DNA of 33,404 nt from an uncultured Algibacter sp. (lineage in GTDB: Bacteria; Bacteroidota; Bacteroidia; Flavobacteriales; Flavobacteriaceae), in NCBI GenBank assembly GCA_938003745.1, contig CALKXS010000186.1:1-33404 (forward strand), in the 5' to 3' direction. Every line of letters starts with the position of its first letter. Within the stretch, counting starts at the first letter, position 1. Positions 21,771 through 24,542 of this stretch are shown one piece after another. The position numbers and the translations under genes were made by a program. The notes under the pieces are model-generated. The model ran no database searches, was not told the DNA's origin, and saw only the letters and a list, made by a program, of their open reading frames with translations.

Positions 21771-22070
21771 TTAAGCAACTTTTACAGCGGTTCCTGTAAT
21801 TGAAACTAGAATAACACCAGTTGTATCATTACTTTCTACATCTATAGAAATGCCAACTACAGCATTTGCATTAAGTTTAACAGCATTATTTTTTAAATTT
21901 TGAAAAGCGGTTTCTTTAACTTCATTTACATTATCTGCATAAGATGCATAATATTTTTTCATGCTAAAGGTTAAGGTTGTTTTTGGCATACTTACATGCG
22001 CGCCTGTTACAATACCTAAATAATTTTGAATAATATGGTTTTCAATGGAATTTGTTGTAGTTAGTATCAT
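21771..22070 (-). CDS. YbjQ/UPF0145-family protein
   Basis: This 99-residue cytoplasmic protein matches the small YbjQ family, sometimes annotated as a putative heavy-metal-binding domain: MILTTTNSIENHIIQNYLGI, then VTGAHVSMP, later NLKNNAVKLNANAVVGISID and a last strand VILVSITGTAVKV. Family structures are pentamers; the function is not known. Length is normal. It lies 89 nt downstream-side of the GIN gene with no clear terminator between, so both may share a transcript. Confidence 0.85.
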   Translation of the reverse strand: MILTTTNSIENHIIQNYLGIVTGAHVSMPKTTLTFSMKKYYASYADNVNEVKETAFQNLKNNAVKLNANAVVGISIDVESNDTTGVILVSITGTAVKVA

Positions 22071-22139: not shown

Positions 22140-22245
22140 TCATTCACCCTACGCGTTAGGAATAGGACGGCATGTTTGAGCTCCCCGACTTTTTAGAAGG
22201 GAGCGAGTAGTGAAAGCCCGACCCTTGTGGTAACGCCTAAAATAT
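22140..22245. ncRNA. Candidate structured RNA or structured intergenic element
   Basis: This stretch is much richer in G+C than its surroundings and contains three nested inverted repeats: GCGTTA (22153-22158) with TAACGC (22231-22236); AGGACGGC (22163-22170) with GCCCGACCCT (about 22216-22225, one bulge and one mismatch); and GCTCCC (22180-22185) with GGGAGC (22199-22204). It has no ORF. The plus strand runs into the terminator at 22254-22289, while the minus strand would run from rnr towards ybjQ, so the transcribed strand is uncertain. I have a memory of similar sequences in other Flavobacteria but cannot name the family. Confidence 0.5.
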
Positions 22246-22253
22246 TACACCTT

Positions 22254-22289
22254 AAAAAGCCACAAACTATATATAGTTTGTGGCTTTTT
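22254..22289. terminator. Strong bidirectional terminator after rnr and the structured element
   Basis: AAAAAGCCACAAACTAT (22254-22270) and ATAGTTTGTGGCTTTTT (22273-22289) form a perfect 17-bp stem with an A-run and a T-run at the ends. It can end rnr (minus strand) and any plus-strand transcript of 22140-22245. Confidence 0.9.
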
Positions 22290-22317
22290 ATATTCTACTA
22301 AATTTATACAGATTGTT

Positions 22318-22344
22318 TCGTTGCGAAAAAACTCCTCGCAACGA
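22318..22344. repeat. Palindromic intergenic repeat after rnr
   Basis: TCGTTGCGA (22318-22326) and TCGCAACGA (22336-22344) are exact inverted repeats around a 10-nt loop, 8 nt beyond the rnr stop. With its flank (GATTGTTTCG before, CTCCTCGCAA inside) it resembles the GATTGCTTCGTT...CTCCTCGCAATGACG repeat widespread in Bacteroidota; this link is from memory. Confidence 0.5.
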
Positions 22345-22352
22345 TCTCTTAA

Positions 22353-24542
22353 TTAATCTTCTGGTTTTCCTATAAGGTGAAAATCAAGATGTTTTTTAAC
22401 TAAATCTGCATTTTTAACTTTTACAATAATCTCTTCACCTAGTTGGTAAGCTATTTTATTTTCTTTACCAACCATAGAATATGTGTCTTGATCAAAATTG
22501 TAATGATCATCTTTCATGTCGCGAACACTTACCATACCTTCGCATTTATTAGAAATAATTTCTACATAAATTCCCCAGTCTGTTACACCCGATATGACAC
22601 CTACAAACTCCTCATCTTTATGATCTTGCATAAATTTAATTTGCATGTATTTTATAGAATCACGTTCGGCACGTGTTGCTAAACCTTCCATATTACTGGA
22701 ATGTTGACATTTTTCTTCGAAAATATCTTCATTTACCGATTTTCCGCCATCTAAATAATGTTGTAATAAACGGTGCGCCATAACATCTGGATAACGACGT
22801 ATTGGGGATGTAAAATGACTATAATAATCAAAAGCTAAACCGTAATGTCCTATATTTTTGGTTGTATATTCAGCTTTACTCATACTACGAATAGCAAGCG
22901 TATCTACTAAATTTTGCTCTTTTTTTCCGTTTACTTCTTTTAATAAACTATTAAGTGAAGCGGCTGTGGTTTTTCGGTCTTTAAAATTAAGTTTGTAACC
23001 AAATTTTGAAACTACACCTTGTAAATTAGCTAGTTTACTATCGTCTGGTTCATCGTGTGTTCTGTAAACAAAGGTCTTTTTTGGATCTTGTTTTCCTATA
23101 AATTCTGATACTTTACGATTTGCTAACAACATAAACTCTTCTATAAGTTTATTAGCATCTTTACTGGTTTTAAAGAATACGCCTACTGGGTTGGAGTTTT
23201 CGTCTAAATTGAATTTTACTTCAACTTTATCAAAAGATAACGCTCCAGATACCATACGTTTACTTCTCATAATTTTAGCAAGTTCGTTCATTTTTATAAT
23301 GGCATCTGCTATTTTTTGATCGGTTTTATATGTTTTTCCTATAAGCGAAACTGCTGCTGGAATTTCGTTTGTGTAAGATTCTATAACGGCTTGTGCTTCT
23401 TCATAAGCAAAACGCGCATCACTATACGTTACGGTACGACCAAACCATTCGTTTTTAATTTCGGCTTTATCATTTATTTGAAATACGGCAGAAAAGGTTA
23501 ATTTTTCTTCGTGTGGACGTAATGAACAAGCGTTGTTTGATAATACTTCTGGTAGCATGGGTACTACTCTATCTACTAAATAAACAGATGTGGCACGCTC
23601 ATAAGCTTCATCATCAAGAACTGTTCCTTCTTGTAAATAGTGTGATACATCTGCAATATGGATTCCTATCTCATATAAGCCATTATCTAGTACTTCGAAT
23701 GATAAGGCATCATCAAAATCTTTGGCGTCTTTAGGATCTACGGTAAAGGTTAAATCTTTACGCATATCTCTACGTTTTGCTATAATATCTTCTGTTATAG
23801 AAGTATCTAAATTGTTAGCATAAGCTTCTACTTCATGAGGAAATTCGTTTGGTAAACCATATTCTGCAAGAATAGAATGAATTTCGGTATTATGATCTCC
23901 TGGTTTTCCTAAAACTTGAATTACTTTTCCGTTTGGAGAATCGGCTTTTTCGGGCCATTCTTCTATATGAACTAATACTTTATCGCCATCTTCGGCTTTA
24001 AAAGTTTTATTTATTGGTACAAATATGTCTTTATACATTTTTGTACTATCTGGAACTACAAATGCATATTTATCGTGCAACTGAATAACACCAACATATT
24101 CTGTTTTTTCGCGGTTTAAAACTTGGGTAATTTCCCCTTCCATTCTTCCGCGTTTACGACGTTTGTATACATAGAATTCTACTTCGTCTCCATTTAAGGC
24201 TTTATTTATATTATTTGATGCTACAAAAACATCATCTACAAACTCATCACTAATAATATAACCAGATCCTTTTGCAGATAAATCTAATATACCTGTATGA
24301 TATTCGGCAGTTACTATGGCTTTAAACTTACCACGTTCTACTTCTTTAATTTCTTTTTTACCTTGTAAATCGCGAAGTTTTTTTATTATTTGGTTTCGGC
24401 TACTGGCATAATTAACACCTAATTTAGCAGCTATTTGCTTGTAGTTAAAACTTTGATTTCTTTCTTTTTTTAAAATACTTAAGATTGTATTTGATAGGTT
24501 TGAAATTCCTTTTTTAGAATTTCTTTTTCTTTTTTTACTCAT
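22353..24542 (-). CDS. rnr: Ribonuclease R
   Basis: RNase R is a 3'-to-5' exoribonuclease that degrades structured RNA and takes part in rRNA/mRNA turnover. The 729-residue protein has a basic N-terminus and a winged-helix-like segment (about residues 15-65, NYKQIAAKLGVNYASSRNQI), cold-shock/OB domains (about 70-225), the RNB catalytic domain with the metal-binding pattern DPKDAKDFDDALS (around residue 268) and IGIHIADVSHYLQEG, VPMLPEVLSNNACSLRP and HYGLAFDYYSHFTSPIRRYP, and a C-terminal S1 domain (about 640-725, FVGVISGVTDWGIYVEI). The length is normal. It faces the AT-rich gap upstream and ends before a strong terminator. Confidence 0.96.
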   Translation of the reverse strand: MSKKRKRNSKKGISNLSNTILSILKKERNQSFNYKQIAAKLGVNYASSRNQIIKKLRDLQGKKEIKEVERGKFKAIVTAEYHTGILDLSAKGSGYIISDEFVDDVFVASNNINKALNGDEVEFYVYKRRKRGRMEGEITQVLNREKTEYVGVIQLHDKYAFVVPDSTKMYKDIFVPINKTFKAEDGDKVLVHIEEWPEKADSPNGKVIQVLGKPGDHNTEIHSILAEYGLPNEFPHEVEAYANNLDTSITEDIIAKRRDMRKDLTFTVDPKDAKDFDDALSFEVLDNGLYEIGIHIADVSHYLQEGTVLDDEAYERATSVYLVDRVVPMLPEVLSNNACSLRPHEEKLTFSAVFQINDKAEIKNEWFGRTVTYSDARFAYEEAQAVIESYTNEIPAAVSLIGKTYKTDQKIADAIIKMNELAKIMRSKRMVSGALSFDKVEVKFNLDENSNPVGVFFKTSKDANKLIEEFMLLANRKVSEFIGKQDPKKTFVYRTHDEPDDSKLANLQGVVSKFGYKLNFKDRKTTAASLNSLLKEVNGKKEQNLVDTLAIRSMSKAEYTTKNIGHYGLAFDYYSHFTSPIRRYPDVMAHRLLQHYLDGGKSVNEDIFEEKCQHSSNMEGLATRAERDSIKYMQIKFMQDHKDEEFVGVISGVTDWGIYVEIISNKCEGMVSVRDMKDDHYNFDQDTYSMVGKENKIAYQLGEEIIVKVKNADLVKKHLDFHLIGKPED

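Follow-up and report, generated by a model that had tools for sequence, protein, structure and literature searches.

What lies between the rnr-like and ybjQ-like genes of an uncultured Algibacter sp.: a structured RNA gene, a leader of ybjQ, or a repeat acquired from elsewhere? Within the window (the whole 33,404-nt stretch of DNA analysed), a G+C-rich folded unit of 85 nt was delimited at 22153-22237 (+), beginning with GCGTTAGG and ending with GGTAACGCC (Table 1). Comparison with related sequences suggests that it very probably belongs, as one of many copies, to a family of non-autonomous mobile repeats dispersed in Bacteroidota.

Table 1 Features of the element and its surroundings in the window.
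Feature	Position	Strand	Basis and remarks
Repeat element, three-way-junction fold, GTTTGAGC subtype	22153..22237	+	Covariance model R1, 98.5 bits
P1, 5' strand GCGTT	22153..22157	+	Pairs with 22232-22236; 100% paired in 35 diverse relatives
P1, 3' strand AACGC	22232..22236	+	Pairing across 35 diverse relatives
P2, 5' strand, GGA here, GGG in the family	22159..22161	+	Middle pair covaries GC/CG/TA
P2, 3' strand CCC	22217..22219	+	Covariation of P2
P2b RY step, AC here, A.G mismatches on either side	22167..22168	+	Covariation in 89 copies of other subtypes; window copy by alignment column
P2b partner, GT here	22210..22211	+	Covariation in 89 copies of other subtypes
5' strand of the apical stem (GCTCCC), in the hypervariable arm	22180..22185	+	Fold and alignment
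Apical stem, 3' strand GGGAGC	22199..22204	+	Fold and alignment
P3 hairpin ACC-CTTGT-GGT; loop and length differ widely among copies	22221..22231	+	Copy comparison, 35-relative alignment
A/T-rich 3' flank, element to terminator; family consensus CAAATA-type	22238..22252		Flank comparison
rnr terminator, hairpin and T-tract; outside the element, which sits behind it	22253..22290	-	Sequence, fold
rnr-like exoribonuclease gene; 3' end faces the element 3' end	22353..24542	-	Pfam RNB 1.8e-105
ybjQ-like gene, 82 nt from the element 5' end	21771..22070	-	Pfam YbjQ_1 2.6e-19

Composition and fold of the window copy

The G+C content of the unit is 54%, compared with 29.7% for the whole window and 22-27% for the flanks, bearing out the contrast drawn in an earlier note on this DNA. 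When the stretch including the terminator was folded, z-scores of -3.96 and -4.75 were obtained for the + and - strand respectively, and neither was equalled in 200 dinucleotide shuffles (0/200 for each strand). The same note had described three nested inverted repeats followed by a perfect terminator. The outer repeat (GCGTTA at 22153-22158 with TAACGC at 22231-22236) and the apical one (GCTCCC at 22180-22185 with GGGAGC at 22199-22204) stand, but the middle pairing (AGG-CGGC/GCCCG-CCT), while present in the single-sequence fold, is not conserved in the family, relatives supporting other pairs in its place. The terminator hairpin exists (22253-22290), but it belongs to rnr on the opposite strand and is separate from the element. 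A scan of the window stretch against Rfam 15 returned no family at the gathering cut-off and nothing at E≤10; the suggested Flavo-1 motif therefore found no match even at this permissive level.

Copy number and spread among organisms

The element was located at 40 places in its own genome by blastn, and at 65 using a covariance model derived from 17 copies. It is present in 32 of 60 genomes of relatives and in 64 of the 109 Flavobacteriaceae genera sampled, with up to 39 strong copies per genome. A search of named genomes with a degenerate pattern for the right end only gave more than 116 stretches among the matches listed; almost all of these yielded a complete element, left and right ends included. 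The matches listed are mostly from Flavobacteriaceae (Algibacter, Tamlana, Polaribacter, Winogradskyella, Tenacibaculum and others), and also include Chitinophagaceae, Parabacteroides, a Bacteroides fragilis plasmid and Treponema. Viral contigs carry the element rarely (15 stretches, several of which are chance matches). Copies do reside on conjugative Bacteroides plasmids. Three Bacteroides/Parabacteroides loci (L242, L243 and L252) represent plasmids of the pBF9343, p5482 and pMMCAT types; on pMMCAT, the TAG within GCGTTAG is itself the stop codon of a LuxR-type gene.

A three-way junction shared by diverse subtypes

The left end common to the copies is GCGTTAGGGATTG and the right end is AAAGCCCGACC-(hairpin)-GGTAACGCC, with (T/C)GCGTTAG as the conserved 5' end. 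The conserved fold is a three-way junction formed by P1 (GCGTT/AACGC), by P2 with an inner RY step and an apical arm, and by P3. At least six inner subtypes are built on this one frame; the apical arm is hypervariable, with some copies having only a few bases there and others over 100, and the element as a whole measures ~60-180 nt. The P2 pairing GGG/CCC covaries to GCG/CGC and GTG/CAC. Pairs backed by relatives are G7-G9/C80-C82 (alignment columns), the two-pair A-RY-G/A-RY-G step and the separate ACC..GGT hairpin. Among 89 copies of other subtypes, the P2b RY/RY step occurs as GT/AC (28), GC/GC (19), AC/GT (11) and AT/AT (9).

In 35 diverse copies, 98.1% of cells are paired; shuffling lowers this to 88.3%, and slid controls do not exceed 40%. 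The covariation score is 0.254 compared with 0.071 for shuffled data. The 17 copies from the own genome are 93.2% paired (87.3% shuffled). The covariation score was reached by 0 of 500 shuffles in both alignments (A1 and A2). Homologues with compensatory stem changes, on which the earlier note had made its suspicion of a structured RNA depend, are at hand in the 17-copy and 35-copy alignments and, for P2b, in the 89 copies.

Mismatches in the RY step comprise 12 G.T and 0 A.C when read on the + strand, suggesting that the + strand is probably the one that folds. This assignment is limited to the inner stems because the terminal stems, with 19 G.T and 18 A.C, are neutral between strands; an impression from 17 copies that all stems favour + strand wobbles was accordingly abandoned, only the inner step being biased.

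Some copies harbour further sequences. A second repeat, ATATTTATATTCATGAATTC...GAATCATGAATA, lies inside L021 and L023 (own genome), L198 and L213, at a fixed site between the P2b step and AAAGCCCG. Another insert, ACTCATCCATTATTATTT...GTGATTGCTTCGCAGTT, is found in the left arm of L118 and L206, immediately after GCGTTAGCGATT.

Placement at gene ends and empty sites

The 3' end of the element faces the end of an opposite-strand gene in 118 cases and a gene start in 59. Two settings prevail: the element immediately follows either a stop codon or the T-tract of a terminator, the window copy belonging to the latter. Where a facing stop codon lies within 400 nt, 138 of 317 copies sit 0-20 nt behind it. 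In three strongly differing phages (L093, L096 and L098), the element is located 13, 3 and 0 nt behind a putative terL, a name given on motifs; the terL neighbourhoods are too diverged to define a junction. On pBF9343-type plasmids, it follows the stop codon of a serine recombinase/resolvase gene. This recombinase was considered as a partner of the element and set aside as an ordinary neighbour, other plasmids having other neighbours.

The rnr and ybjQ genes are adjacent in five relatives that contain neither element nor terminator, with a spacing of 1, 2, 42, 59 and 104 nt, compared with 282 nt in the window. Relatives with the rnr-ybjQ pair also lack two other features of the region 22253-22349, namely a second inverted repeat (CGTTGCGAGGAGTTTTTTCGCAACG) and the rnr terminator, and the intergenic region thus grew by several features. 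Empty sites recur elsewhere. The element follows the stop codon of the gene upstream of pheS in some genera, and in others the spacer there is short and empty (TAAGAATTCTTAAATTTGC and similar); likewise, the gene for a 437-aa Fe-S protein has the element in some genera and an empty site in others. At both of these genes, different inner subtypes occupy the identical site in different genera, so the site was either hit repeatedly or the inner part exchanged.

A direct-repeat search of 191 copies detected no target-site duplication. None of the loci compared offered a very recent insertion together with its exact empty counterpart, hence the junction is not fixed to the base. Likewise, no strain-level empty site was found in Bacteroides plasmids, all homologous plasmids examined carrying the element.

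Judged from these loci, the element behaves as a non-autonomous insertion and not as a leader. The earlier note had allowed for a riboswitch-like leader of ybjQ, a reading suggested by the position of the element 82 nt upstream of the ybjQ start. The five relatives in which rnr and ybjQ are 1-104 nt apart with no element between them argue against a leader or riboswitch, as does the orientation of ybjQ, opposite to the probable functional strand of the element. Given also the missing Rfam match, a ybjQ leader or a Flavo-1 RNA is barely credible. Of the identities that the earlier note entertained, a mobile structured repeat is strongly supported, by the 65 own-genome copies, the occurrence in dozens of genera, the compensatory changes and the empty orthologous sites.

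Codon phase of the stop-to-element distance

For copies 0-20 nt behind a stop codon, the distance from stop to element is a multiple of three in 99 of 138 cases (phases 99:21:18). In many cases the same gene bears copies in several genera; some copies must therefore be old, and copies are not independent. Counted by gene family, 47 of 75 are in phase (p=1.9e-7, 0-20 nt), as are 31 of 51 single-copy gene families (p=5e-5) and ~36 of 57 under very loose family clustering (p=1.3e-5). No comparable effect was seen more than 20 nt from the stop or on the 5' side of the element.

The C-termini of the upstream genes are native and conserved, indicating that the stop codons have not moved. Three trivial or general origins of the phase were discarded. 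Decoy motifs behind 1967 other stop codons are unphased, which argues against an artefact of the ORF procedure. Selection on stop-codon readthrough does not account for the phase, since continued reading into the element extends equally far whichever frame is used. Finally, the phase is not a general property of REPs, as only 7 of 22 E. coli REPs near stops (400 kb of MG1655) are in phase, below the number expected under the element's effect (p=0.003).

Newly fetched copies, a test set beforehand, gave 34:8:4, mostly from families already seen; for held-out new gene families 6 of 13 are in phase (p=0.24), a sample that is too small. The phase is strong in pooled data, but the held-out families by themselves do not confirm it.

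Proposed mechanism and rival explanations

Spread as a single strand offers a tentative account of these observations, to which we would give somewhat less than an even chance. An enzyme supplied in trans would spread the copies by recognising the folded + strand as single-stranded nucleic acid and joining it at the T-rich, exposed 3' ends of transcription units. This would resemble REP mobility, but without a Y1 (RAYT) transposase detectable in these genomes. Searches for Y1/RAYT and reverse transcriptase genes yielded no mobilising gene; genomes with old copies may no longer have the enzyme, or it may be something other than a Y1 transposase or a reverse transcriptase. The phase furthermore suggests, speculatively, that a ribosome on the mRNA, during either translation or termination, could set the joining point, with the edge of the terminating ribosome or an in-frame A-site cut as possible cues. 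Such translation-coupled spread, with the ribosome fixing the joining point and the element landing whole codons behind the stop, seems to us distinctly improbable, and we know of no precedent for a mobile element of this kind.

The element may alternatively be the REP of a Bacteroidota TnpA_REP (RAYT) of subclass 2.6, with a Y1 HUH transposase excising and inserting the folded single strand, which we consider possible but rather unlikely. Genes of this subclass in Bacteroidota are reported to be flanked by 'atypical secondary structures' lacking a GT[AG]G foot, further copies of which occur at other places in the genome (PMC6006769). The element fits this in outline (host phylum, atypical structure and dispersed copies), and these structures could be its own family, the comparison being one of descriptions only. 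The absence of target-site duplications and the similar clustering of E. coli REPs within ~20 nt of stop codons (PMC12306157) are likewise in line with a RAYT. However, PF01797 has no match at E≤1e-3 in G026, G038 and G043, three genomes that are 99-100% complete and contain 31, 10 and 8 copies, and the own genome (G000) has only broken IS200-like copies, none flanked by the element. The Y1 and REP-transposase loci read, which included a few Bacteroidota RAYT loci but no subclass 2.6 genes, contained 0 element matches, and E. coli REPs lack the codon phase (7/22). The broken IS200-like transposase genes of the own genome (L031-L034) are situated at C169, C12 and C96; a GCAGACGGGGTA-type end accompanies two of them. 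The element is a short palindromic repeat dispersed intergenically in many copies (65 copies, 64/109 genera), as REPs are; we do not claim REP/RAYT membership because the GT[AG]G tetranucleotide is absent from the hairpin foot and the transposase was not found.

It is less probable still that the element acts in cis under selection, as a folded 3' UTR through which the upstream gene would be affected in its translation termination, its transcript ends or the stability of its mRNA. Tight placement behind the stops of the same genes across genera, with differing inner subtypes per site, would suit such a role, and REPs ≤15 nt from the stop codon have been reported to stall ribosomes (PMC12306157). 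Yet G.T pairs are tolerated on the strand that runs antisense to this gene, five relatives do without the element at the window locus, and readthrough length is independent of the entry frame, leaving frame selection via readthrough unsupported. A retro-type element, the + strand RNA being copied into DNA at T-rich gene ends by a reverse transcriptase in trans, appears more doubtful again. It would accommodate the A-rich 3' flank (CAAATA) against T-tracts, the one-sided 3' anchoring with no target-site duplication, and the codon phase at mRNA ends, but neither the own genome (89% complete) nor any of G007, G038 and G043 (99-100% complete; 25, 10 and 8 copies) has an RVT_1 match. Reverse transcriptase is present in G026 and others, and no element was found in the reverse-transcriptase loci read. 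A MITE of a DDE transposon was rejected: P1 does provide inverted ends of 5-6 bp, but the 191 copies are devoid of target-site duplications.

Comparison with known systems

Searches of 5.4 million open papers did not find GCGTTAGGGATTG, CAATCCCTAACGC or GGGTCGGGCTTT among the matches listed, and the repeat family has apparently never been named. It seems to be a REP-like, non-autonomous structured repeat not previously described, with an unexplained anomaly of placement. A very common dispersed sequence of a major marine bacterial family is contained in no Rfam family. It is an oriented marker of gene ends that would confound predictions of operons, terminators and sRNAs, and its codon-phased distance is a testable anomaly. 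If the phase stands, the ribosome must play a part in either mobility or selection, and such a part is predicted by none of the REP, MITE and attC models.

Integron attC sites act as a folded single strand, the non-coding one, and lie directly behind stop codons, and all of these traits appear to recur in the element. However, the end motifs are reversed (GTTA...TAAC in the element, TAAC...GTTA in attC), and the element occurs as single dispersed copies in housekeeping contexts, with no cassettes. An attC identity was rejected, as the ends GCGTTAG and TAACGCC do not conform to 5' RYYYAAC and 3' GTTRRRY. Group IIC introns favour the downstream side of intrinsic terminators, a preference shared by the element, which differs from them in its length of only ~60-180 nt, the lack of a ribozyme match in the Rfam scan and its opposite facing; several of its hosts are furthermore without a reverse transcriptase. 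Flavo-1 RNA is likewise a flavobacterial structured motif, but the element does not match it at any level of the Rfam scan.

The structures of TnpA_REP subclass 2.6 (RAYT group 5) share with the element, by description only (PMC6006769), an occurrence in Bacteroidota, an unusual structure and dispersed copies, but an association of the element with a transposase gene was seen in no locus read. By analogy, REP elements are the nearest counterpart in behaviour. Like REP/BIME sequences, the element is dispersed, intergenic, palindromic, present in tens of copies, often ≤20 nt from a stop codon, non-autonomous and without target-site duplication. It is in contrast 2-3 times longer, adopts a three-way junction in place of the single REP hairpin, has no GT[AG]G foot and abounds in several genomes with no detectable RAYT, and it is both orientation-specific and codon-phased to the stop.
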